This document shows positions 12,007-28,320 of a stretch of DNA of 64,000 bases, piece by piece. The DNA is from Geobacter sp. SVR (GTDB lineage: Bacteria > Desulfobacterota > Desulfuromonadia > Geobacterales > Pseudopelobacteraceae). The stretch covers positions 4,308,501-4,372,500 of the forward strand of contig NZ_AP024469.1 in the NCBI RefSeq assembly GCF_016865365.1, given 5' to 3'. The translations under genes and the position numbers were made by a program. How positions within the stretch are numbered: position 1 is the first letter of the stretch; every line of letters starts with the position of its first letter. The notes beneath the pieces were generated by a model. It was not told where the DNA came from, did not search any database, and saw only the letters and a list, made by a program, of their open reading frames with translations.

Positions 12007-15000
12007 CTACCAGCTCGCCAGCCCCACGACCCTGCGGAGCAGGGCGATCGCGTCGCTGATGTCGATGACGCCGTCCGCGTGCGGTGCACCGTTCACCAAC
12101 GGCCCCACGTCCAGTGCATCATCGTCCGGGGTCCGGGCCACGAGCCCCACGGCGATCTGCAGGGCGCGCAGGGGATCGGTAATGGAGAGCGGCCTGAAGA
12201 TGATGTTGCGCTGGACCGTGGAGGTATTACCGGCAAAATCGGTGGCAGTAACGGTAATGGCGTATGTCTTGCCGGCCGTGAAGGTCAAGGTCTGCTGGAA
12301 GGCGCCGTTGACGACGCTTGGAGATGGGGACACGGACACGCCGTCTATCTTGATATCGACGGATGTTATGCCCGTGTCCTGGTCGGACACGGTCCCGCTC
12401 AACAGGTATCCGCTCACGGCGGTGGTTATGTCGCCGGACGGATCGGTGATGGCCAGCGACGGGGCGGTACTGTCGAAGATTACCGTGCGCGTGATCGTAG
12501 AGCTGTTTTTTGTGCCGTCATTTACAAGGTCGGTTGCCTTGACCTCTATCGTGTTCAGGCCAGGCACGAGGATGGCCTGATAACTGAAGGTCGCGCTGTT
12601 GCCGCTCATGATTGCCGCTTGGAATTCACCGTTCCCTATCCTTATTTCCACGGTGCCGGGTTCGCTGAGCGTGCCGGCTATGGTGACGGTCTGCTGAGAG
12701 GTATAGCTCCCTCCGGCAGGTGTCGGATCGCTGAGGGTGATTATCGGCGCCGCCTGGTCGTAGATGGTGCTTCTGCTGTCTGTTGTCTGATTTCCGGCCG
12801 AATCGGTTGCAATCACGGTGATAGTGTTGGCGCCGGAGGTAAGGGGCACAGCGGTATTGAAGGCACCGCTGACCGCATCCGGTGTGACTGCCGACCCGTT
12901 TACCGTCAGGCTCTGGATGCCGTTGGCATCGCTGGCGGTACCGGTGATGGTGAGGGTGTTGTTGCTGGTGATCGTGCCGTCGGCCAGAGTGGTTACCGTC
13001 AGGGTTGGCGCGATGTTGTCCACCGTAAATGGTGCACTGGCCGCTGACGGCTGCGCAGTTATCGCGCCGCCGCCGGCTGTGGCGGTTCCTGCGGCAATGG
13101 TGATGCCGAGGGTACCGTCTCCGGTAATGTTGCCGATGGATATCGTGCGGCTGGTCGTTCCGCTGCCACTGACCGCTACCTGGCCGTTGGCCGTGCCGCT
13201 CTTGATAAGGGTGATATTGTTGGCAGCCAACGTGATGTTTTCTGCCCCGCCATAGCTCACACTATAGGTTACCGTAGTGTCTGATTTCACCGTGGTCGCG
13301 GATGGTACCCCAATGACCGGTGTCAGCAACCAAGGCGTGACGCTGTTTGATGCGGCCGAAGCGGCGCCGCTGCCAGCCGCGTTGGCTGCAACAACGGTGA
13401 AGGTGTAGGCGGTGCCGTTGGTCAGGCCGGTGACGGTAATCGGGCTGGCTGTTCCGCTGGCGGTTATAGCGCCGGGAGAGGATGTCACCGTATAGCCGGT
13501 GATGACGCTGCCGCCGTTGGAAGCCGGAACCGTGAAGGTCACGGTCGCTTGGCTGTTGCCCGGAACAGCGGTAACGCCTGTCGGTGTGCCGGGGGTTGTA
13601 AAAGCAACGGGGATGACGCTGTTCGACGCGACGGACGCAGCTCCGCTGCCGACTGTGTTGGCGGCGGTAACGGTGAAGGTATAGGCGGTGCCGTTGGTCA
13701 GGCCGGTAATGGTATGAGTGGTGCCCGTGGTCCCGGCAGCGCTGTCTACGCCACCTGCCGGGTTGGAGGTGACGGTGTAGCCGGTGATGGTGCTGCCGCC
13801 GTTGGATACCGGCGGCATGAAGGTCACAGCCGCCTGGCCGTTGCTCGCCACGGCGGTAACGCCGGTCGGCGCACCGGGGGCGGAAATGGCGTTGGCGGTG
13901 ATGGCGATTTGCGGAGCAAGCCTGTTGGAGGTATTAAAGACGTAGCCGACCTTGTCATCCGCCGCGACGCCCAGCAGCGTCAGCTTGCCGGAAAGGAGTG
14001 CGGCGGTGAGGGTGTCATTGACCGTCAGGTTGTAGGACGTCTGCGGCTCTGCACTGGTATTGTTGGTGCCGGGCCCGGTCGCATTCCACTGGAACGTCCC
14101 TACGGGTGTGGCGGTGGTCGTGGGGAGGTATGCCTGAAGCGTGTTCCAGGTTGTCGTGGAGATATCCGGGTTGCCGCCCAACAGTTTGAACGTGAACTGC
14201 CCGGAAGCGACCTTGTTGAAATCCGGATTGTTGGGCTGAATGCCTTCTTCGGTCCAGTTGGAGGCCAGGGCAATGCTGGCTGAGGAAATATACCAGTTGC
14301 CCGCGCCATACTTGCTGTTGAAGGCTACTTTGATATCGGCGCCGATTATATCGGTACTGCCGTTGGCGGGTGCATAGGTGCCTCCCCTGCCTGTTTTATC
14401 AGTGGCCGTATTGAAGCTGAACAATGAATCCATAGTGCGCGGGTTCGAGTAGTACGTAGTAGCTGCCGGCGCCGAAATCATCATGGCGCCTTTGCTGTAA
14501 AAGCTCGTATCGGCATAGCTGGAGCCCGTTGTGTTCGAAGGTCCGTCGCTGCCTGATATCACGTAGGTTTGATAATCCGAAAAAAGAGTGACCGTTGTCG
14601 GTGTTGCAGGGACAGCGGGGATGACGCTGTTGGACGGGTCGGAAGCGGCGCCGGGGCCTGCCGCGTTGGCGGCGGTGACGGTGAAGGTATAGGCGGTGCC
14701 GTTGGTCAGGCCGGTGATGGTACGGGTAGTGGCGGTGGATCCAGGGTTGCTGTCTATGCCGCCTACTGGATTGGAGACCACGGTATAGCCGGTAATGGCG
14801 CTGCCTCCGTTGGAGGAGGGAGCGGTGAAGCTCACCGTAGCCTGTGTGTAGCCGGGAATGGCGGTGACCCCCGTGGGTGCACCGGGTACGGTATGAGGAG
14901 TCACGTTGTTCGACGCGGTAGAGGCAGCCCCGCTGCCGCCGGAGTTGGTGGCGGTGACGGTGAAGGTGTAGGGGGTGCCGTTGGTCAGGCCGGTGACGGT

Positions 15001-18000
15001 AATCGGGCTGGTAGTGCCGCTGGCGGTTATGGTGCCCGGAGTGGAAACTGCCGTATAGCCGGTGATGGCGCTGCCGCCGTTATTTGCGGGCGCCGTGAAG
15101 CTCACGGTGGCCTGGCTGTTGCCCGCCACGGCGGTAACCCCTGTGGGCGCACCGGGGCCGGAGCCCGGAATGACGCTGTTGGATGCGGCGGAAGCGGCAC
15201 CGCTACCGACCACGTTAGCGGCGGTGACGGTGAAGGTATAGGCCTGGCCGTTGGTCAGGCCGGTGATGGTGATAGGGCTGGCCGTGCCGCTGGCTGTCTT
15301 GTTGCCCGGAGAGGATGTCACCGTGTAGCCGGTGATGGCGCTGTTGCCGTTGGAGACCGGTGCGCTGAAGGTCACGGTCGCCTGGGAGTCGCCGAACGTG
15401 GCGGTGACGCCGGTCGGGGCACTGGGTACGAAGAGAGGCAGGGTGGGGGTAACGCTGTTGGATGTTGCGGCGGTACCGGTCCCGGTCGCATTGGTGGCGG
15501 TGACGGTAAAGATGTAGGCGGTGCCGTTGGTCAGGCCGGTGATGGTATGGTACAGGCTGGTGGAGCCGGCGGCGATGTCCACCCCGCCCGCCGGACTGGA
15601 GGTGACGGTGTAGCCGGTGATGGAGCTGCCGCCGTTGGAGGAGGGAGCCGTGAAGGTCACGGTCGCCTGGCCGTTGCCCGCCACGGCGGTGACGCCGGCG
15701 GGTGCGCCGGGCACAGTGAAGGACGCGGCGGGCGTGACAAGGTTTGACTGGGCGGATGTGGCGCTGGTCCCGAGCGCATTGGTGGCGGTGACGGTAAAGG
15801 TATAGCCGGTGCCGTTGGTCAGACCGGTAACGGTATGGGTGGTGGCGGTGGAGCCGGCATTACTGTCGGTAGTACCGGTCGAGGGAGACGCGATGACCGT
15901 ATAGCCGACAATGCCGCCGCCGTCGGATGCGGGCGGCGTGAAGGTTACAGTTGCCTGGCCGTTGCCGGCCACGGCGGTCACCCCGCTGGGGGCGCCGGGA
16001 ATCGTGACTGCGCCGCTGACCGCGTAGGTGCCGAGGTCGCTAACGGTGAAACTGGCATAGGTGCCGTCATAGACCAGATCATTGGCCGCGTACCGCGACC
16101 AGGTTGAGGTTGTGCCGTTATACTTCCAGACCGTAAGATCTGACTGGCTGCGGCCTGAGCCGACGGAGAGCGAAAGATAGACCGGGTCGCCGGGGGTATA
16201 ACCGCTGCTGGTGAAGTCCCAGCCGCTGAGCACCGGTTTGCTGATGATATTTTGCAGCGCGGTCTGTTCCGTCCCGCTGATGGCAGTCGCGCCAAAGGTC
16301 AGGTTGGTGGCGGATGCTGCGGCCTGGAAGGCCGCGCCGACCGACGTGCCGCTGACCGCATCGCTGACCAGCACGCGCTGGGTCTGCGCCAGATCGAAGG
16401 TCGTGGCGATGCCTGCATCAGTCGTTGCTGCCGAGGATACGGTTACGCTGTGGGCGGTGGAGTCATACTTCCCCCCCAGGGCCTGAAATGTGCCGGTATG
16501 TGTCACATTAGGCGTGACCGTGGTGTAGGTGATGGTCGTGTTCCAGGTGGTGGCGGAGATGGGGGTGTAGGCGCCGTTGGCCGCTGCCGGGCCTGCAACC
16601 ATGCGGATAACGCCGTAATTGGTCATTGCGCCGGTGCCGCCGCCAACGGTGAGCGTGCCGGCTACGTCGGTGGTCAGGACCGAGGTGCTGTTGATGGTGA
16701 CGGGCGTTGCTGCCGTGACAGTCCCGCCGTTGCCGATGGTGAGCCTGCCGATGCCATTCACCGACTTGTTGCTGTTCTGGATGGAGCCGAGGGAGAGGGT
16801 ACCGCTGTTTTCCCACTTCGAGCCGGCGCCGGCAACAGTGACGATATTCTTGTCGTTGTTGTTACTGGAGCCGACAGTGCCGGCACCGGTATTCTTGACG
16901 TATCCGCCGTTGGTGATGCTGAGCGAGCCGGCGCCGTACAGGCCGCCGACGGCGAGGGTGCCGTTGCTGAGCCACTGCGAGGGCGTTGTTATGCCATTGA
17001 CGATGGATGCGCCATCGACAGAGGCCGCACCGGAGTTGTTGATAGTTGCGTTGGTATTGCTGACATACCCGCCGTTGCTGATCTTGAGTGCCCCATTGAA
17101 CGTCCCGGTAGCACTGCTACTGCTGCCGATGGCAAGGGTACTGCTGTTCTCCCACTTCGAACCGGCGCCGTTGACGCTGACGCTGCCGGCGGAGCCGTTG
17201 CTGTTGCTGATGACCGCTGTGGTGTTTTTGACGTACCCGCCGTTGGTGACGGTGAGCGTTCCGTTGCCGGACGAGCCGATGGTGAGGGCGCCGCTGCTCT
17301 CCCACGTGGAGGGGGTTGTTGTGCCGTTGACGGTGGCTGTCCCGTCGACGGTGACACTGCCGGTGGAGCCGGCGCTGCTGGCGACAATGCCGGAGGTGGT
17401 GCTTTTGACGTATCCGCCGTTCGTGATGCTGAGTGCGCCGGTACCGGAACTGCCTGTGTTCAGGGTAGTGTTGGTCCAGCGCGAATTTGCCCCGTCAACG
17501 GTTGCCGTGCCGTTTGATCCGGCATTGTAGCCGAGATAGCCGGTGGAAGACGCAATGGTGGCGCCGCCCGAGATGTTCAGGGTGCCTGCACCGAGGTAGC
17601 CGACACCGAGTTCTTTGGTGCTGCTCTGGGTCAGGTTTGTTGTAACGCCGTTCATTGCAAAGGTTTGATTGGCGCCGTGGGAGGCATCGAAGACAAGATT
17701 CGTATCGGCGACGATACCGGAGGTATTGATCGTGCCGCTGCCGGACAGTTGCGACGAAGAAGCAAAGAGTGATCCGGTGGTGAGCGTGCCGCCGCCGGTG
17801 AAGTCGACGGTGCTGTTGCTTAGAATGGTCGTTGCGCCCGTGACGGACACCAGCCCGCCGTTGGTGATGTTGAGTTTTCCGCCTCCTAAATAGTTGCCGA
17901 CGCTGAGGCTGGTGCTGTTGACCCACTGCGAGGGGGTTGTTGTACCGTTGGCGGTGGATGATCCGTCCACGGTGACTGTGCCTTTGGAGCCGATAGTGCC

Positions 18001-19935
18001 GACCGTGTTGCTGACGTATCCGCCGTTCAGTATGCCGAGCGAACCGGTACCGATGGTGCCGACGTTCAGGGTGCCGCTATTGGTCCACTTGGAATTTGCG
18101 CCGGTAACGGTTGCCATACCGGTGCTGCTGGTATTGTTGCTGCCGAGAATGCCGCTGGCGGATGCAACGGTGACGCCGCCCGAGATGTTCAGGGTACCCG
18201 TGCCGAGATACCCGACGCCAAGCGGGTTGGTGGCGGACTGGTTCAGATTGTAGACTATGCCGTTTTGCGCAAAGGCTTGACTGACGCCGTGAGAGGCGTC
18301 GAAGGCGAGATTCACATCGCCGATGATACCGGAAGTATTGATGGTACCGCTACCCGACACCTGCGACGGTGTGGCATAGAGCATCGCGGTGGTGAGGGTG
18401 CCGCCGTTGGTGCCGAAATTGATCCTGCCGTAGGTGCCGACGGTCGTTGCCCCTGTGACGGTGACCGCCGAGCCGTTGGTTATGTTCAGTGTGCCGGTGC
18501 CGGAAGTAGCGCCGATGTTGAGAGTGCCGCTGGTATTCCATGCCGAGCCGGAACCGTCGACGGTGACCGTGCCACTGGAACCGGCCATGTAGCCGATCGT
18601 GGCGTTGGTATTGCTGACGGATGCACCGTTGGCGATGCTGAGCGTCCCGGCACCGTAATTCCCCACGTTCAGGACGCTGCTGTTGGCCCAGCTCGAGCCG
18701 GTGCCGTTGACGGTCATGGTCCCGGTGGAACCGGCGTTGTAGCCGAGATAGCCGTAGGAGGCGGTGCTGACCTTGCCTCCGTTGGTAATGGCGAGCGACC
18801 CGGCTCCATTATATCCCACGTATAATTCGGCGCTGTCGGTCCACGTCGAGCCGGCACCGCTGACGGTCGCCGTGCCGTTGGAGCCGGCCAGGTAGCCGAG
18901 GTAGCCAATCTTGGATGTAGCGGTGGCGCCCCCTGCAATGTTCAGGTTTCCCGTACCGAGGTATCCGGCACCGAGCGGGTTGGTGGCGAGCAGACTCAGG
19001 TTATAGGCGACATTGTTTTTCGTAATCGTTTGCGTGGCGCCGTGGGAGGCGTCAAAAGTCAAGTCCAGGTCACTGACGATGCCGCTGGCATTGATCGTGC
19101 CGGTACCCGATATTAGTGACGGTGAAGCATACAGTGTACCGGTGGTGAGGCTGCCGCCGTTGGTACCGAAATCTATCTTGCCGGTGGCGTAGACGGTCGT
19201 TGTTCCCGTGCCGGTGGCGACCGTCGAGCCGTTGGTTATGTTCAGCGTTCCGGTACTCCCCCCTGCACTGCCTATGTTCAGGGCATTGCTGGTGCTGGTA
19301 AGAGTCCAGGCCGAGCCTGAGCCGTCTACGGTAATGGTGCCGCTGGAACCGGCAGCGTTGCCAAGGGTGGAATTTGTACTCGTAACGGCTGCGCTGTTGG
19401 TGATTGCGAGCATCCCGGTGCCGGAACTGCCTACGGTAAGGCCGCCTGAGGTCCATTTCGAACTGCTGCCGTCAACGCTGACCATGCCGCTGGAACCTGC
19501 AGCGCTGCCAAGGGTGGAGCTTGTGCCGGTAACGGCTGCACCGTTGGTGATTGTGAGCGTCCCGGTGCCGGAATTGCCTACGGTAAGGCTGCTGTTGGTC
19601 CACTTCGAACCGGTGCCGTCAACGGTGACGGTTCCTGTTTTACCGGCCGAGACCCCGAGAGAAGCTGAACTATTTGTAACGGCGCTTCCTCCGTTGATAC
19701 TCAAGGAGCCATCGCCCGTGTTGTACCCGATGAAAACGCTTTGACCGGTCCAGGTGCTTGGGTCGGTGGCGGGGGAGATGTCGCCGCTATAGGGTGTGGC
19801 CGCCTGGGCGGCGGGCGCACAAGAGAGCGCCACCGCCGCAAGCGGCAGCATGGCGGCCCCGATATGCCTCGACAATCCGGCCATGAACCGGCTCATCAGG
19901 CTTTGCCTGCTATGGTGCGAGCTTCTTGTCGACAT
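12007..19935 (-). CDS. Giant secreted repeat protein with dockerin-like C-terminus
   Basis: This is a 2642-aa exported protein with a long signal region cleaved near PAAQA-ATP (about residue 46). Residues ~50-1240 are tandem T5SS/PEP-CTERM-associated repeats of the type GTVTVDGxGSxW...LxVGxxGxGTLxITNGxxV, which likely form a beta-solenoid. Five fibronectin III domains follow (~1310-1772), then a domain shared with the 601-aa protein (~1778-2017), two more fibronectin domains (to ~2197), Ig-like repeats (to ~2573) and a dockerin-like end (~2582-2642). The second EF-hand (DGVIDISDAI) is intact, but the first has lost its DxNxDG loop. The start at 19935 has AGGGGG upstream. Adhesion or matrix function is inferred. 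Confidence 0.8.
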   Translation of the reverse strand: MSTRSSHHSRQSLMSRFMAGLSRHIGAAMLPLAAVALSCAPAAQAATPYSGDISPATDPSTWTGQSVFIGYNTGDGSLSINGGSAVTNSSASLGVSAGKTGTVTVDGTGSKWTNSSLTVGNSGTGTLTITNGAAVTGTSSTLGSAAGSSGMVSVDGSSSKWTSGGLTVGSSGTGMLAITNSAAVTSTNSTLGNAAGSSGTITVDGSGSAWTLTSTSNALNIGSAGGSTGTLNITNGSTVATGTGTTTVYATGKIDFGTNGGSLTTGTLYASPSLISGTGTINASGIVSDLDLTFDASHGATQTITKNNVAYNLSLLATNPLGAGYLGTGNLNIAGGATATSKIGYLGYLAGSNGTATVSGAGSTWTDSAELYVGYNGAGSLAITNGGKVSTASYGYLGYNAGSTGTMTVNGTGSSWANSSVLNVGNYGAGTLSIANGASVSNTNATIGYMAGSSGTVTVDGSGSAWNTSGTLNIGATSGTGTLNITNGSAVTVTGATTVGTYGRINFGTNGGTLTTAMLYATPSQVSGSGTINTSGIIGDVNLAFDASHGVSQAFAQNGIVYNLNQSATNPLGVGYLGTGTLNISGGVTVASASGILGSNNTSSTGMATVTGANSKWTNSGTLNVGTIGTGSLGILNGGYVSNTVGTIGSKGTVTVDGSSTANGTTTPSQWVNSTSLSVGNYLGGGKLNITNGGLVSVTGATTILSNSTVDFTGGGTLTTGSLFASSSQLSGSGTINTSGIVADTNLVFDASHGANQTFAMNGVTTNLTQSSTKELGVGYLGAGTLNISGGATIASSTGYLGYNAGSNGTATVDGANSRWTNTTLNTGSSGTGALSITNGGYVKSTTSGIVASSAGSTGSVTVDGTATVNGTTTPSTWESSGALTIGSSGNGTLTVTNGGYVKNTTAVISNSNGSAGSVSVNGAGSKWENSSTLAIGSSSSATGTFNGALKISNGGYVSNTNATINNSGAASVDGASIVNGITTPSQWLSNGTLAVGGLYGAGSLSITNGGYVKNTGAGTVGSSNNNDKNIVTVAGAGSKWENSGTLSLGSIQNSNKSVNGIGRLTIGNGGTVTAATPVTINSTSVLTTDVAGTLTVGGGTGAMTNYGVIRMVAGPAAANGAYTPISATTWNTTITYTTVTPNVTHTGTFQALGGKYDSTAHSVTVSSAATTDAGIATTFDLAQTQRVLVSDAVSGTSVGAAFQAAASATNLTFGATAISGTEQTALQNIISKPVLSGWDFTSSGYTPGDPVYLSLSVGSGRSQSDLTVWKYNGTTSTWSRYAANDLVYDGTYASFTVSDLGTYAVSGAVTIPGAPSGVTAVAGNGQATVTFTPPASDGGGIVGYTVIASPSTGTTDSNAGSTATTHTVTGLTNGTGYTFTVTATNALGTSATSAQSNLVTPAASFTVPGAPAGVTAVAGNGQATVTFTAPSSNGGSSITGYTVTSSPAGGVDIAAGSTSLYHTITGLTNGTAYIFTVTATNATGTGTAATSNSVTPTLPLFVPSAPTGVTATFGDSQATVTFSAPVSNGNSAITGYTVTSSPGNKTASGTASPITITGLTNGQAYTFTVTAANVVGSGAASAASNSVIPGSGPGAPTGVTAVAGNSQATVSFTAPANNGGSAITGYTAVSTPGTITASGTTSPITVTGLTNGTPYTFTVTATNSGGSGAASTASNNVTPHTVPGAPTGVTAIPGYTQATVSFTAPSSNGGSAITGYTVVSNPVGGIDSNPGSTATTRTITGLTNGTAYTFTVTAANAAGPGAASDPSNSVIPAVPATPTTVTLFSDYQTYVISGSDGPSNTTGSSYADTSFYSKGAMMISAPAATTYYSNPRTMDSLFSFNTATDKTGRGGTYAPANGSTDIIGADIKVAFNSKYGAGNWYISSASIALASNWTEEGIQPNNPDFNKVASGQFTFKLLGGNPDISTTTWNTLQAYLPTTTATPVGTFQWNATGPGTNNTSAEPQTSYNLTVNDTLTAALLSGKLTLLGVAADDKVGYVFNTSNRLAPQIAITANAISAPGAPTGVTAVASNGQAAVTFMPPVSNGGSTITGYTVTSNPAGGVDSAAGTTGTTHTITGLTNGTAYTFTVTAANTVGSGAASVASNSVIPVAFTTPGTPTGVTAVPGNSQATVTFTVPASNGGSVITGYTVTSSPGAITASGTASPITVTGLTNGTAYTFTVVAANAAGSGAASAASNSVTPWLLTPVIGVPSATTVKSDTTVTYSVSYGGAENITLAANNITLIKSGTANGQVAVSGSGTTSRTISIGNITGDGTLGITIAAGTATAGGGAITAQPSAASAPFTVDNIAPTLTVTTLADGTITSNNTLTITGTASDANGIQSLTVNGSAVTPDAVSGAFNTAVPLTSGANTITVIATDSAGNQTTDSRSTIYDQAAPIITLSDPTPAGGSYTSQQTVTIAGTLSEPGTVEIRIGNGEFQAAIMSGNSATFSYQAILVPGLNTIEVKATDLVNDGTKNSSTITRTVIFDSTAPSLAITDPSGDITTAVSGYLLSGTVSDQDTGITSVDIKIDGVSVSPSPSVVNGAFQQTLTFTAGKTYAITVTATDFAGNTSTVQRNIIFRPLSITDPLRALQIAVGLVARTPDDDALDVGPLVNGAPHADGVIDISDAIALLRRVVGLASW

Positions 19936-22545: not shown

Positions 22546-23823
22546 CTAAAGCCTGACCAGGTGTACTGCGCAGGATATGCACGGGTCATAGGCACGCACC
22601 AACTGTTCGAGGGAGGCTGTTAATTCCCGCCCATCCGCACCCTCCATCTGGCAGGCCAGGGCGAGCAGGTCCCGTTCCATGGCAGCCTGATTGATGGCGG
22701 TGGGAGTGATGACATCGGCTTCGGTGCAGATCCCCCTGCTGTCGAATCCGTAGCTGTGGATCAGAACTCCGCGCGGCGCTTCTATGGCGGCACTTCCCTG
22801 CCCCCTGCCGATGGCGAATGTGGCCGGTTCCTCGCGGCTGAAGCCGGCTTCCAGCAGGGTGTCGACAACCTCAAGGGAACGCTCCACCGCCAGGATCAGC
22901 TCAAGAGCCTGGGCCAGGTTGTTGGCGCGGATATCGCCGCCGGACAGCACGGGGCGGAACTCGCTGAAGGCGGCGGCAGCCGTGGTCGAAAGGCGCAGGC
23001 CGAGATTGAGCCGGGCCAGTGCCCCCACGGTGGGGGCTTCACCGTCGATCAGCACCGTCTTGGCATTGCCGCTTTCCGGCAACCGTTCCGACAGGGCCGT
23101 CCTATAGGAATCGGCCGGGATCCTGCGCCCGTTCCCCATGACCAACCCCTCGCCAAAGAAAGGTACAGTATCCGGCTTAAGGGCGAGATAGCGCGGAGCC
23201 GGAAGTACGCCCCCCCCTGCCTGGGGAAGGGCCGCGAACAGCCTCAAGGCCGCATGCGCCTCGGGCAGTGCGGATTGCAGCGCCTCTTTCAACATCAACA
23301 GCCCTTCCCGGTTCACCGGTTTTCCCATACCCCCCGGGATCAGGGTTACCGGATGGATCAGCCTGCCACCCACCGTTTCCTGGATCAGGTTGCCGACCCT
23401 CTTGATCCGCAGCCCCATTTTCAGTTCCTCCGGGGCCTTGTCCGCCAGGCCGGAGAGGCCGGCAACCCTGAAACAGTCGGGGAGCACCAGGCAGAAGAGA
23501 TGCATGGCATGGCTCTGGATGTGCCCGCCATACAGAATCAGTTCCCGGAAGAGCCTGGTCTGCTCGCTTGTCGGGGCATTCATGGACTTTTCGATGGCCT
23601 GCAGGGCGCAGATGCGGTGTACGGTGGAGCAGAGGGAGCAGATGCGGCAGATGATCTCCGGCACCTCGACATGGCTTTTGCCGGTGAGCAGCGACTCGAA
23701 GAAACGGGGGGATTCGAAGAGCGAGAGACTGACCCGGCTCACCTTCCCGCCGTCCAGGGAAACCGTGATGCGGCCGTGCCCTTCCACGCGGGTGATCGGT
23801 TTTATCTCAACTGCGCTGCTCAT
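22546..23823 (-). CDS. hydA: NiFe hydrogenase large (alpha) subunit
   Basis: The 425-aa large subunit of a cytoplasmic NiFe hydrogenase has the proximal nickel motif RICSLCSTVH (near residue 60) and the distal motif DPCISCAVH near the C-terminus. A tail of only four residues (LVRL) follows the final His, where the maturation protease normally cuts. The usual glycine in RxCGxC is replaced by serine. The start at 23823 (MSSAVEIKPITRVEG) has GGAG upstream and overlaps the small-subunit gene by 17 bp. It is the last gene of a beta-gamma-delta-alpha operon, the gene order of archaeal sulfhydrogenases (group 3b), which couple H2 to NAD(P)H. Confidence 0.9.
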   Translation of the reverse strand: MSSAVEIKPITRVEGHGRITVSLDGGKVSRVSLSLFESPRFFESLLTGKSHVEVPEIICRICSLCSTVHRICALQAIEKSMNAPTSEQTRLFRELILYGGHIQSHAMHLFCLVLPDCFRVAGLSGLADKAPEELKMGLRIKRVGNLIQETVGGRLIHPVTLIPGGMGKPVNREGLLMLKEALQSALPEAHAALRLFAALPQAGGGVLPAPRYLALKPDTVPFFGEGLVMGNGRRIPADSYRTALSERLPESGNAKTVLIDGEAPTVGALARLNLGLRLSTTAAAAFSEFRPVLSGGDIRANNLAQALELILAVERSLEVVDTLLEAGFSREEPATFAIGRGQGSAAIEAPRGVLIHSYGFDSRGICTEADVITPTAINQAAMERDLLALACQMEGADGRELTASLEQLVRAYDPCISCAVHLVRL

Positions 23824-24562
23824 AATTCCACTCCGGGTAAAAGCGTTGCATGCGGCTGACAATTTCATCCCTGCCAAAGCCCTTTTCCAGCAGCAGTTCT
23901 ACCTGGGCAGCAACATTGGCCTCGACCACCGGTCCGCGGCACCCCTCGCACGAGATCCCCACCGTCGGGCAGCGGGCATTGCAACCGGCCTGAATCAACG
24001 GCCCCAGGCACATCTCGTCACGCTCGATCAGCAAACAGAGGTTTTCCCGGATGCGGCACTCGGTGCAAACCGGGCAGGAAGGGAATACCGGGAAGGTTCC
24101 CCGCCTGAGGGAGGCCAGGGTCGCCACAAGCTCCCCTTTTTCAGGGGGGCAGCCGGTAATGGCGAAATCGACTTTGACAAAATGGTGGAAAGGCTGCGGA
24201 TTGAACGTTTTCAGGGCATCTCCCGCTGGGCCGTAAACCGCCGCGGCCAGGTCCCGCCTCGACTCGTGGTTCTTCATGGCTGCGATGCCCCCCCATAGGG
24301 CGCAGGTGCCGAAGGCCACCAGGAGGCGGCTGCAGTTGCGCAAACGGATCAGCGTTTCCAGATCTTCGGGAGTGGAAACGGCCCCTTCCACGAAGGCCAC
24401 GTCGATCGGACCGGCAATCGTGCGCTCCGTATGTCCTATGGGAAAGTACTCGATGCTGAAATGCCGCACGATCTCCAGCAACTCCTCTTCGCAGTTCAGA
24501 AGCGTCAGCTGGCATCCGGAGCAGGCGGTCAGCCCGGCTATGGCGATGGCCGGTTTGCTCAT
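23807..24562 (-). CDS. hydD: NiFe hydrogenase small (delta) subunit
   Basis: The 251-aa small subunit begins MSKPAIAIAGLTACSGCQLT. Its CSGCQ pair and the later GTCALWGG, GCPPEKGEL and C-rich segment (SCPVCTECRIRENLC) supply iron-sulfur ligands. There is no Tat signal, which agrees with a cytoplasmic enzyme. Its ATG overlaps the gamma-subunit stop as ATGA, and its own 3' end overlaps the large-subunit start by 17 bp, so the four genes are tightly coupled. It relays electrons from the NiFe site to the flavin subunit. Confidence 0.9.
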   Translation of the reverse strand: MSKPAIAIAGLTACSGCQLTLLNCEEELLEIVRHFSIEYFPIGHTERTIAGPIDVAFVEGAVSTPEDLETLIRLRNCSRLLVAFGTCALWGGIAAMKNHESRRDLAAAVYGPAGDALKTFNPQPFHHFVKVDFAITGCPPEKGELVATLASLRRGTFPVFPSCPVCTECRIRENLCLLIERDEMCLGPLIQAGCNARCPTVGISCEGCRGPVVEANVAAQVELLLEKGFGRDEIVSRMQRFYPEWNYEQRS

Positions 24563-25407
24563 AGAGCCCCCTTGATCCCTGCGAGGTCGCTGTAGCGGAA
24601 AACCGGCCCGTCGCTGCAGCAGAAGAGGTCCCCCACAGCGCAATGGCAGCAGAGCCCCACACCGCACTTCATTCTGCGCTCCAGCGAAAGAAAGATGCGC
24701 TCGGCCGGGATGCCCAGCCCCTGCAGCTCATCGATCAGGCAGCGGTAGAGCGGCGGGGGACCGCACACGGCGGCAACGGTGCCTGCCGCAGCGAAATTGA
24801 TCCCCTTCAGCAGGGTCGGCAGAAGCCCCGTATTGCAGATCAGGCCCTCGGGGGGCTGATCGCTGGCAAAATCCACCGTCAGAAAGAGATGCATGTCCCG
24901 CCGTCCGGACAGTTCGGCCAGTTCCTCCTTGAACAGGATTGCCGCCGGTTCCCGGGCGCCGTACATCAGGGCGATTTCGCCGAATTCCCCCCGGCGTACG
25001 AGGATGGTGTGCAGCAGCGAACGCAGTGGAGCGATGCCGAGACCGCCGGCCAGCAGCAGGATATTCCGCCCCCCCCACTCGGACAGCGGGAAGCCGTTGC
25101 CGTACGGTCCACGGATACCCACCCGTTCGCCGGGTACGAGACGATGCAGCATGGTGGTCACATGTCCCACCCCCCTGACGCATACCTCCAGCATGCCGTC
25201 GCCTCGCTGGGCCCCGGCCAGGGAAATAGGGGCTTCACCTGCACCAGGAACCGAGAGCTGGACAAACTGCCCCGGATTGAAGCGAAAACGGGCATGGTCA
25301 TCGTTCTCCGGACGCAGGCGGTAAAAGACGGTGTCCGGCGACAGCGGACGCCGTTCGTCGATGACGGCCGGGAAAGGGACTATGTCGGCATCAGCTCTCT
25401 GTTGCAT
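24559..25407 (-). CDS. hydG: Hydrogenase gamma subunit (FAD/NAD(P)-binding)
   Basis: The 282-aa protein is of the ferredoxin-NADP reductase fold. The FAD-binding part has FNPGQFVQLSVPG (~43-55) and the nucleotide part has LLAGGLGIAPLRSLL (~117-131) and VCGPPPLY. A [2Fe-2S] site at the C-terminus is formed by CGVGLCCHC with a later CC. This is the standard diaphorase-like subunit of group 3b hydrogenases and of dihydroorotate-dehydrogenase-type electron-transfer proteins. Operon context settles the role. It overlaps the beta gene by 17 bp. Confidence 0.9.
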   Translation of the reverse strand: MQQRADADIVPFPAVIDERRPLSPDTVFYRLRPENDDHARFRFNPGQFVQLSVPGAGEAPISLAGAQRGDGMLEVCVRGVGHVTTMLHRLVPGERVGIRGPYGNGFPLSEWGGRNILLLAGGLGIAPLRSLLHTILVRRGEFGEIALMYGAREPAAILFKEELAELSGRRDMHLFLTVDFASDQPPEGLICNTGLLPTLLKGINFAAAGTVAAVCGPPPLYRCLIDELQGLGIPAERIFLSLERRMKCGVGLCCHCAVGDLFCCSDGPVFRYSDLAGIKGAL

Positions 25408-26386
25408 TCTCTGATTCCCCGAACAGTTCCAGAAGATCGATCTTCACCGGACACACCTCGCGGCAGCGCCCGCAGCCGACGCAGGAGAGCATCCCCCGTG
25501 TGGGCCCGAACCCCAGATATTTGTGGCGGTAACGATAATGGAAGCGCTCCAGGCGGCTCTTGCGGAAATTGACGCCGCCTGCTACCTCGCCGTGGGTCTT
25601 GAAGAGGCAGTTGTCCCATTCGCGTATTCTCCGGGCGGTTTTTCCATCCAGGGCGCCCTGCTCGCGGATATCGAAGCAGTAACAGGTCGGACAGCAGAGG
25701 GAGCAGGCGCCGCAGGAGAGGCAGAGGCCGGCGAACTTTTCCCACAGCGGGCTTTTTTCAAACATTTCGCCGCGGGCCGTGGCCTGACGGATGGTTTCCG
25801 CCGCACCGCAGGTTCGCTCCGCCGCCGGGAGAGCGTCGCCTTTTGTCAGACAGGGGGCCAGCTTATCCAGGATGGCCCGTCCTTTGGGGCTCCAGGCCCG
25901 CACGTCGAATCCGGCGGCACCGGAATGCATGAACAGATCGCAGCCCCGTATCCCGTCTGCTGCCGGCTCGCCGCAAAAGCAATATTCGTCCGGTTCGCAG
26001 GAAAGACCGATCAGCGTCAGTGCCTGACGCCTGGCCCGGTACAGGGGGTCGGCCGCATATCCCAGAAAGACCCGGTCAAGATAGGCGATCCCCTGCAAGT
26101 CACAGGGGTGCAGCCCCAGTAGCACGATTTCGGGACAGGCTGGTGAAGGCGATTCGAATCCGCGCTCCGGATCGAAGATAAGAATGGTTTCGCGTGGGGG
26201 AAGCAGGTACTTTTTAGGGGGGATCAGGGTGCGGCGATAATAAAGACGCAGGTCCGTGACAGTAGTGATCGTTCCGAAGGCCGGCACTCTGCTGTCAGTC
26301 AGGAGCGGACCATGCACCTGGCCAAAGGAGGCGAGAATTTCCAGGAACTCAGGCAGCAGATCGTGCTTGAGAAAATTCGTTTCCAT
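25391..26386 (-). CDS. hydB: Hydrogenase beta subunit (4Fe-4S electron transfer)
   Basis: This is the 331-aa iron-sulfur subunit. Two ferredoxin-type cluster motifs lie near residues ~215-235 (CLSCGACSLCCPTCYC) and ~305-320 (CVGCGRCREVCPVK). Another Cys-rich patch, CEPDEYCFCGEP, is at ~130. It resembles the HydB/AsrA family that links the NiFe subunits with the flavin subunit. The start at 26386 is chosen because GGAGG lies six bases before it. It is the first gene of the operon, with a sigma-70-like promoter just upstream. Confidence 0.88.
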   Translation of the reverse strand: METNFLKHDLLPEFLEILASFGQVHGPLLTDSRVPAFGTITTVTDLRLYYRRTLIPPKKYLLPPRETILIFDPERGFESPSPACPEIVLLGLHPCDLQGIAYLDRVFLGYAADPLYRARRQALTLIGLSCEPDEYCFCGEPAADGIRGCDLFMHSGAAGFDVRAWSPKGRAILDKLAPCLTKGDALPAAERTCGAAETIRQATARGEMFEKSPLWEKFAGLCLSCGACSLCCPTCYCFDIREQGALDGKTARRIREWDNCLFKTHGEVAGGVNFRKSRLERFHYRYRHKYLGFGPTRGMLSCVGCGRCREVCPVKIDLLELFGESENATES

Positions 26387-26412
26387 CGGTTCCTCCGCAT
26401 GAAGGCCGATCA

Positions 26413-26440
26413 ATCATAGCAGGAAGAACGATCTACGCAA
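26413..26440 (-). promoter_or_regulatory. Sigma-70-like promoter of the hydrogenase operon
   Basis: On the minus strand TTGCGT (-35) and TATGAT (-10) are 16 bases apart, about 27 bp before the hydB start. No sigma-54 site is seen here. Confidence 0.5.
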
Positions 26441-26538
26441 AGCATTGGCGCTCTCCCGGGTATGAATTTCTCAATCAATCTTCCATGAAAGAGGGCCGGC
26501 GGATCGAGAAGCGACCCTGGCCGGCCCATTCCGAAAGA

Positions 26539-26850
26539 TCAGCTGAATCCCGCCTCTTTCCAGGCATCTATTCCCCCTTCCAGTGCCGAAACATTGCGAT
26601 AACCTTTTCCCGCGAATTCCTCTGCCCGACCGGCAGACGTGTGTTCCTGCGGTCATTTGCAGTAGAAGATCAGCTCCTGGTCTTTGGATATGCCGGGAAG
26701 CCTGGCAGTGAGTTCGCCCAGAGTGAGGGCGCCTTCCAAACGCATCCGTTCGCACATGTCTTCGCTGTCGTAGGCACAGATGAAGAGCGCCTGGCCTGCC
26801 TGCACCCTGTTCTGCGCTTCCTGTGGTTTTATCCTTCTGGCCTCGGCCAT
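26539..26850 (-). CDS. Rhodanese-like selenoprotein (in-frame UGA)
   Basis: The frame opens at ATG 26850 (GGAG seven bases upstream) and gives 65 residues ending DQELIFYCK. It then meets TGA at 26655-26653 and continues in the same frame for 37 more residues (PQEHTSAGRAEEFAGKGYRN...GGIDAWKEAGFS) to a second TGA. Both halves together make one 103-aa single-domain rhodanese, with the UGA in the active-site loop two residues after Cys64. A hairpin with a GGTCG loop follows the UGA by 21 nt, fitting a bacterial SECIS. Reading UGA as selenocysteine is therefore more likely than a broken gene. The probable role is sulfur or selenium transfer. It lies between nifV and the hydrogenase operon. Confidence 0.82.
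26610..26655 (-). promoter_or_regulatory. Candidate bacterial SECIS element
   Basis: Directly after the UGA, the RNA can pair CCGC (26652-26649) with GCGG (26613-26610) as a lower stem. TCTGCC pairs with GGCAGA as a six-bp upper stem closing a GGTCG loop (26631-26627). A GGU in the apical loop and a UGA-to-loop distance of 21 nt are typical of bacterial SECIS hairpins. Confidence 0.7.
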
Positions 26851-26975
26851 CCTCTTCTCCTTTCGCTCCGTTTTCGGCCTGCTCGCGCCTGAATCCGCGA
26901 CAGGCACTGCCGGAATCTCCGGCAGAACCGGAGCCGCTGCTCTTTCCATAGGCAGCGGTTTTTCTTCGCGAAAGT

Positions 26976-27085: not shown

Positions 27086-28228
27086 TCAGGCTGCTTTCTT
27101 CGTATCGTACAACTTGAGCAGCTGGCTGTTGTTGAGCGGACGGCGGGTCTGCTGGGCGATCCGTCTGACCTTATCCATCAGGCTGACCGCTTCGGCGCGG
27201 CTGATGGCGATGCCGATCTCCTTATAGCGGCTGATCAGTCCGCTGGCCCCGGAGTGTTTGCCCACCACGATCTGACGGGTCAGTCCCACCTCGGCCGGAT
27301 CGAACCCCTCGTAGTTCTTCGGGTCCTTGATGACCCCGTCGGCATGCAGCCCCGATTCATGGGCGAACACCCGCTCCCCTACCACCGCTTTCCAGGCCGG
27401 CAGCGGGCGGTGTGAGGCCTTGGCCACCAGCAGGGACAGCTCGCGGAAGCGATGCGTATCAATGCCGGTATCGATACCGCTGGCATATTTGAGCCCCATA
27501 ACCACCTCTTCCAGAGCGGCATTACCGGCCCGCTCCCCCAGGCCGTTGACCGTGGTGTTGACAAAGGACGCTCCGGCGCGGATTCCGGCGATAGCATTGG
27601 CAGTGGCCATGCCCAGATCATTATGGGTATGCACCTCGATCGGCAGCTCGGGTACCGTCTCTCGCAGGGCCGCCACCTTTTCGTAGGTGATGAAGGGGTC
27701 AAGGATGCCGAGGGTATCGCAGAAACGGAAACGGTCCCCCCCCATGGAGGCGGTGATCCGCATCAGCTCCACCAGAAACGGCAGATCTGCCCGGCTGGCA
27801 TCCTCCCCCCCCACCGAGACGTACAGTCCGTGATCCTTGGCAAAACCGAGAGCGGTCTTGAGCTGCTCCATGACCCAGGCGCGCGACTTGTGGAGCTTGT
27901 TCCGGATCATGATATCCGAGACCGACAGCGAGATATCCACAGCTGTGACGCCGCTGCCGATGCTGGCCCGGATATCCTCGATCGTGGCGCGGTTCCAGGT
28001 GATCAGGCGCGCGTTCAGCCCGAGATCCACCAGGTCCTTGACGCTCTCCTGCTCCTCTCTGCCCATGGCCGGGATGCCACATTCCAACTCCTGCACTCCG
28101 ATCGCGTCCAGCATTCGCGCAATGGCACGCTTGTCGCGCCGCGAAAAAACCACTCCAGCGGTCTGCTCGCCATCCCGCAGGGTGGTGTCGTCGATGATGA
28201 TACCGCTTCCGACATGCTGTTCTTTCAT
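27086..28228 (-). CDS. nifV: Homocitrate synthase NifV
   Basis: The 380-aa enzyme condenses acetyl-CoA with 2-oxoglutarate to homocitrate, the organic ligand of the FeMo-cofactor. Diagnostic segments are DDTTLRDGEQTAGVVFS near the N-terminus, the metal-binding HTHNDLGMATAN (~205) and GLGERAGNAALEEV. The isopropylmalate synthase regulatory domain is absent, as expected for NifV. The start at 28228 has GGAGG six bases upstream; the longer frame would read through the leader terminator. Expression is through a nif-type leader. Homocitrate synthase of lysine synthesis is a less likely alternative given the nif context. Confidence 0.93.
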   Translation of the reverse strand: MKEQHVGSGIIIDDTTLRDGEQTAGVVFSRRDKRAIARMLDAIGVQELECGIPAMGREEQESVKDLVDLGLNARLITWNRATIEDIRASIGSGVTAVDISLSVSDIMIRNKLHKSRAWVMEQLKTALGFAKDHGLYVSVGGEDASRADLPFLVELMRITASMGGDRFRFCDTLGILDPFITYEKVAALRETVPELPIEVHTHNDLGMATANAIAGIRAGASFVNTTVNGLGERAGNAALEEVVMGLKYASGIDTGIDTHRFRELSLLVAKASHRPLPAWKAVVGERVFAHESGLHADGVIKDPKNYEGFDPAEVGLTRQIVVGKHSGASGLISRYKEIGIAISRAEAVSLMDKVRRIAQQTRRPLNNSQLLKLYDTKKAA

Positions 28229-28242
28229 GCTGACCTCCAAAG

Positions 28243-28278
28243 AAAAAGGCGCTGCCTTCGCGTGCGAATGGCGGCGCC
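28243..28278 (-). terminator. Intrinsic terminator in the nifV leader
   Basis: The minus-strand stem GGCGC-C-GCC pairs with GGC-A-GCGCC and is followed by TTTTTCTTT. It lies 15 bp before the nifV start codon, leaving room only for the ribosome site. Confidence 0.8.
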
Positions 28279-28294
28279 TTTGCCGGTTCCTGAA
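28243..28294 (-). promoter_or_regulatory. nifV antitermination leader (ANTAR-type)
   Basis: The hairpin GGC-AAAGGC-GCC (28273-28284) is identical to the nifH one, and its 3' arm is shared with the terminator. The leader is shorter than in nifH, and the first stem is only a weak GG/CC pair around TTCAGGAA. If the promoter at 28305 is right, transcripts begin almost at this stem. Confidence 0.7.
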
Positions 28295-28304
28295 GCCTTG
28301 CTCT

Positions 28305-28320
28305 TGCACGCTGCGTACCG
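28305..28320 (-). promoter_or_regulatory. Sigma-54 promoter of nifV
   Basis: CGGTACGCAGCGTGCA has GG-N10-GC spacing and keeps ACG and TGCA of the consensus. It is weaker than the nifH and nifB sites. Confidence 0.65.

Follow-up and report, generated by a model that had tools for sequence, protein, structure and literature searches.

Does the TGA at codon 66 of this short gene end a 65-residue protein, or is it read as selenocysteine (Sec) within a complete rhodanese? The window, by which we mean the whole 64,000-nucleotide stretch of Geobacter sp. SVR DNA that was analysed, carries the gene on its minus strand, running from 26850 to 26539. An earlier note on this DNA had located the interval 26539-26850 and the in-frame UGA at codon 66 correctly without stating the strand; read on the plus strand, the same interval is nonsense. 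Comparison with homologous genes makes it very probable that the window gene is a genuine selenoprotein gene, encoding a single-domain rhodanese in which UGA66 is read as Sec by means of a SECIS hairpin.

The frame opens with an ATG at 26850-26848, directly preceded by AAAGGAG, and AAGGAG-type sites also lie ahead of nearly all homologues. Its terminal stop is a TGA too (26541-26539). With TGA66 taken as Sec, the product has 103 residues (MAEARRIKPQEAQNRVQAGQALFICAYDSEDMCERMRLEGALTLGELTARLPGISKDQELIFYCKUPQEHTSAGRAEEFAGKGYRNVSALEGGIDAWKEAGFS) and contains the active-site motif FYC-K-U (YC-x-U across the family) within the catalytic loop CKUPQEHTSA, so that the UGA lies, as had been proposed, two residues after the catalytic-type cysteine of codon 64. 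The Pfam Rhodanese model (PF00581) matches the readthrough product, with Cys put at position 66, at 33.4 bits against a gathering cut-off of 22.2, and the match covers residues 43-100, across the UGA. This bears out the earlier description of a 103-residue single-domain rhodanese with family homology on both sides of that codon. A single-sequence AlphaFold2 model (pLDDT 76.4, residues 30-37 poor) shows strands and helices alternating in rhodanese order, and Foldseek pairs it with GlpE (1gmx; E 3.6e-05, TM 0.78), YgaP and other rhodaneses. A standard frame call gives a truncated stub, and translation would stop after 65 residues if Sec were not inserted.

The length of the readthrough was considered as evidence and dropped. 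In a window-wide control, 138 of the 285 TGA-ended open reading frames of at least 65 codons could be read on for 37 codons or more, so extensions of this kind are common in so GC-rich a window. What exceeds chance here, judged by comparing sequences, is conservation across genomes rather than open readthrough. Coordinates are collected in Table 1.

Table 1. Features of the rhodanese locus and its neighbours, in window coordinates
Feature	Position	Strand	Basis or detail
Rhodanese-domain selenoprotein gene (predicted)	26539..26850	-	103 codons plus stop; TGA codon 66 read through
Selenocysteine codon UGA, Sec66 (predicted)	26653..26655	-	TGA in 67/68 distinct homologues
Catalytic-type Cys64 codon, TGC here	26659..26661	-	TGC/TGT in 66/68 members, TGA in 2
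Cys25 codon, TGT	26776..26778	-	Cys in 68/68 members; where rhodaneses have the DVR-motif Asp
5' leader with Shine-Dalgarno-like AAAGGAG	26851..26875	-	Sequence
Bacterial SECIS hairpin UCUGCC-GGUCG-GGCAGA (predicted)	26621..26637	-	Loop 21 nt after the UGA, inside the coding sequence
Terminator-like GC-rich hairpin GGGCCGGC...GCCGGCCC-UCUUU	26466..26536	-	Fold -29.6 kcal/mol
Upstream neighbour nifV (homocitrate synthase)	27086..28309	-	TIGR02660 532.6 bits, cut-off 462.9
Downstream group-3b-like sulfhydrogenase beta/gamma/delta/alpha genes	22546..26413	-	NCBIfam; Pfam NiFeSe_Hases
Sulfhydrogenase beta, gamma, delta and alpha, in order	25391-26413, 24559-25407, 23807-24667, 22546-23877	-	

Homologues were gathered from genome sets for the order, the class and the phylum, which overlap. 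Counted as members were distinct loci scoring above 100 bits, the fetched loci being read in six frames, and there are 68 of them; because the sequences are related, counts among them are not counts of independent events. The Sec codon is TGA in 67 members and TAA in one, and Cys occurs there in none, so the homologues that the earlier note had suggested examining for Cys or Sec carry the Sec codon, in frames that continue beyond it. Within the order, 33 of 141 genomes have a match to the gene, with TGA in all among the matches listed; profile searches found matches in 48 of 277 genomes at class level and in 37 of 395 at phylum level. A scan of a contig collection reached only three loci, the one relevant locus encoding an Acidobacteriales sister-type protein, also with TGA, and plasmid records yielded only distant matches below 60% identity. 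Median dN/dS is 0.31-0.32 after the UGA and 0.36 before it, which indicates that purifying selection continues downstream. That downstream part holds the conserved rhodanese residues EHTSAGRA and GY.NV.AL.GGV.AW.

Several loci depart from this pattern. The single TAA occurs in a second copy in one genome (L113, G274:C57:56645-56944), whose hairpin is intact and whose paralogue (L084/L128) has TGA at the Sec codon; it reflects either recent loss or an assembly error. The only Cys relative found, L114 (G322:C169:4191-4499), belongs to a sister type with the usual rhodanese DVR motif; it has the Cys codon TGT at the Sec position, and its hairpin stem is broken. Other irregularities are of a different kind. 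L053 (G121:C80:16276-16572) has an additional in-frame TAA 3' of the Sec codon and is either a decayed copy or an assembly error. At L108 (G353:C18:21643-21843) the frame breaks immediately 3' of the UGA, and the C-terminal part lies in another frame. L047, from an Acidobacteriales MAG (JAICLA010000044.1, 6001-6303), encodes a sister-type rhodanese with an in-frame TGA (YCTU) and a matching SECIS hairpin; the open frame is longer here, with 275 codons before the UGA, which lies close to the C-terminal end.

A search of the whole window with Rfam at gathering thresholds matched no family to the hairpin, and the SECIS element therefore had to be shown by comparison. Its stem, CUGCC-GGUCG-GGCAG, has 5 bp, with a sixth pair present in the window, and GGU stands in the loop. 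The 5-bp stem is intact in 64 of the 68 members, and in a 30-sequence alignment 100% of stem cells are paired. One stem pair in that alignment changes from U-A to C-G. The two covarying bases are the third bases of a Ser codon (TCT/TCC) and an Ala codon (GCA/GCG), and both changes are silent, so the protein sequence cannot account for the covariation. Codons +7 to +9 (GCC GGT CGG) are 99-100% identical among pairs that encode the same residue, where 24-31% would be expected; elsewhere in the gene the average is about 56-58%. In the sister family the outer stem pair has switched from C-G to G-C with pairing kept. The suggestion that a SECIS-like hairpin with GGU in its loop lies 21 nt downstream of the UGA is thus sustained by conservation and covariation.

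The genome also holds the machinery that Sec insertion requires, for which the earlier note had named selA, selB, selC and selD. All four score above their curated cut-offs: selA at 602.8 bits, selB at 353.7 bits with the neighbouring stretch included, tRNA-Sec (selC) at 77.8 and selD, which has an in-frame TGA of its own, at 373. Elsewhere in this genome, and where the rhodanese gene itself ends, UGA is an ordinary stop. Across the order, selB is present in 122 of 141 genomes, and 32 of the 33 genomes that bear the rhodanese gene have selB, selC or both. In the one exception, G049, the gene is present with neither selB nor selC seen in an assembly that is 84% complete. Among near-complete genomes of the order that lack both selB and selC, the gene occurs in none of ten.

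These observations bear on three other ways of reading the TGA. The frame is split, long extensions are common in this window, and L113 and L053 carry TAA codons, all of which would fit an ordinary rhodanese gene with a nonsense mutation, whether a pseudogene or a sequencing error. However, an identical TGA codon in nearly all members, drawn from many families, together with the low downstream dN/dS and a hairpin conserved at silent sites, is hard to reconcile with decay; that TGA is conserved throughout the phylum, with purifying selection downstream, already refutes this explanation, and we give it next to no probability. It is extremely improbable that the functional product is the 65-residue N-terminal piece, with the downstream part untranslated or a separate open reading frame. 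A bacterial ribosome that does not insert Sec would indeed end there, but the downstream codons evolve in the same frame, encode conserved rhodanese residues and fall within a Pfam match that crosses the UGA. The residue at position 66, predicted by comparison, could in principle come from near-cognate suppression or from recoding as Trp or Cys. We consider such non-Sec decoding highly improbable, given a complete Sec system, a SECIS-type hairpin at the canonical distance, a UGA placed within a C-x-U redox motif, and a closest Cys relative in which TGT goes together with a broken stem. Reading of UGA66 as Sec is the interpretation carried forward below.

In two members the catalytic-type codon is TGA as well. 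L103 (G446:C132:2735-3037) reads Y-U-S-U and L104 (G599:C53:8584-8886) reads Y-U-A-U; in each, a single SECIS hairpin would serve both UGAs, which stand six bases apart. They come from different genome families, lie apart in the tree, and are each known from a single assembly, where a sequencing error is possible. As far as these two assemblies can be trusted, they support exchange of Cys and Sec at the catalytic position. The term 'UxU' is absent from the main text of a 2026 review (PMC13188914). Such members would offer a handle on whether one SECIS can recode two UGAs that are six bases apart.

We propose the following model for the active site. SelB and tRNA-Sec would translate UGA66 as Sec, guided by the SECIS inside the coding sequence, so that the extended active-site loop would contain Cys64 and Sec66 as a C-x-U pair. 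A third residue, the invariant Cys25, would end the strand on which rhodaneses normally have the DVR Asp; it lies in a CAY-type motif in all 68 members. In the general rhodanese fold this strand is the one next to the strand that leads into the loop, and we infer from this topology that Cys25 is near Cys64 and Sec66. Cys64 may take up sulfane sulfur as a persulfide, and the Sec66 selenolate may then free the sulfur as sulfide, or reduce a disulfide, by way of a Cys64-Sec66 selenenyl sulfide. The pair could be reset by Cys25 or by an external thiol or thioredoxin. The natural role would be cytosolic handling of sulfane sulfur and thiol redox in anaerobes, untied to nifV or the hydrogenase. Sulfane-sulfur/thiol redox chemistry through Cys64 and Sec66 seems to us the most likely function, at roughly an even chance.

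A broader interpretation can be put forward only tentatively, and we think it somewhat doubtful: that these proteins are a rhodanese family of their own, obligately Sec-containing, whose redox centre consists of Cys25, Cys or Sec at 64 and Sec66, two lineages being double-Sec (U-x-U) with one SECIS for both UGAs. If true, such a family would carry out persulfide or selenenyl-sulfide reactions to which a Cys enzyme is poorly suited.

Two other roles were weighed against sulfane-sulfur/thiol redox handling. Ogasawara and co-workers reportedly proposed, in 2001, a selenium-loaded rhodanese as the selenium donor to SelD. The window protein might likewise serve selenium trafficking, as a perselenide carrier that gives reduced selenium to SelD, since rhodaneses are able to carry selenium and the genomes that bear the gene also hold the Sec system. 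This role is nonetheless unlikely: far more genomes of the order have selB than have the gene, and Sec synthesis therefore does not depend on it; a selenium donor that itself requires Sec would be circular; and a scan of ten window proteins around the gene found no sel genes. The protein could instead be a partner of its neighbours, providing sulfur for the nitrogenase cofactor alongside NifV or passing sulfane sulfur to the sulfhydrogenase. The genes share a strand, with gaps of 125 bp on the hydrogenase side and 235 bp on the nifV side, and the closest families of the hydrogenase are sulfhydrogenases; the best NCBIfam matches of its genes are ShyB, PRK08345/HydG, ShyD and ShyA, all under their curated cut-offs. 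Against a partnership, sulfhydrogenase genes were found beside none of about 40 relatives except for one weak gamma-subunit-like match (L119), and among the same relatives nifV was found near one only (L127), about 2.3 kb off. The terminator-like hairpin between the rhodanese and hydrogenase genes also suggests, from its sequence, a separate transcript end. This partnership, weakened by the lack of synteny, is very unlikely in our judgement.

Crude ORF calling around about 40 homologues gave no widely shared neighbour, and we dropped gene neighbourhood as a guide to function, as the neighbours are not regular around these relatives. Since neither nifV nor the hydrogenase is a regular neighbour, the position beside them is probably incidental. 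The earlier note had called the place between nifV and a NiFe hydrogenase operon unusual; unusual it is, but it is not informative, because the relatives sit elsewhere. In three genomes only (G006, G121 and G124; loci L052, L053 and L050/L151), a gene for a 64-residue ferredoxin lies directly 3' of the rhodanese gene, and it is possible that this ferredoxin is an electron partner in that lineage. Farther off in the window, at 12007-19935 on the minus strand, a 2642-residue open reading frame has glucodextranase-B-like domains as well as seven fibronectin type III stretches; it probably encodes a large protein that is secreted or sits at the surface.

As standard gene calling yields only a stub, many anaerobe genomes probably lack an annotation of the protein or carry a wrong one. 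In most families of selenoproteins, homologues with Cys are numerous (PMC1088965). The present family is Sec-only in the genomes searched, and is well suited to the question of what selenium can do that sulfur cannot.

How does the window protein compare with known systems? Thiosulfate sulfurtransferases of the GlpE type have a short catalytic loop. The loop of the window protein is longer, and neither a thiosulfate substrate nor a catalytic direction can therefore be assigned to it from the GlpE type. With GlpE and YgaP (PDB 1gmx, 2mrm) it shares fold, size and a catalytic Cys that ends the central strand, whereas those proteins are without Sec, have a shorter active-site loop and carry Asp in the DVR motif. 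The group 3b NiFe hydrogenase/sulfhydrogenase (ShyABCD/HydABGD) is a different protein that merely lies next to the gene in this genome, an arrangement not conserved among the relatives.

The closest resemblance is to the NF041203 'rhodanese-related (seleno)protein' (rhodanese_LYCAU), which has C-x-U in the same loop. A 2022 review lists COG0607 form 2 with the motif CxU and the example TKB26178.1 (PMC9312934), and in the 2026 review NF041203 appears as rhodanese form 3, again with that motif and example (PMC13188914). The other forms in the latter (1, 2, 4 and 5; UxxS, UxxG, UxxG and TsoB UxxxxU) also place Sec within the active-site region of a rhodanese domain, but their motifs are listed Sec first and lack the CxU spacing of the window protein. 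All 22 members scanned match the NF041203 model, and one DVR-type relative tested passes its cut-off of 115 at 118.6 bits. The window protein, at 57 bits, falls below the cut-off, as do two divergent members at 47 and 45 bits, these matches being confined to the C-terminal half. The DVR-type relatives share the SECIS position and architecture with the clade, in which Cys25 replaces the DVR Asp. The tree sets the clade apart as a separate group from seven of these relatives with branch support of 100/99; it rests on few columns, so that its inner forks are unsure. TKB26178.1, the example in both reviews, may itself belong to the clade. The earlier remark that the family is not new thus holds for the CxU rhodanese type (NF041203, form 3), which was already known and of which the clade is a variant outside the current NF041203 cut-off.
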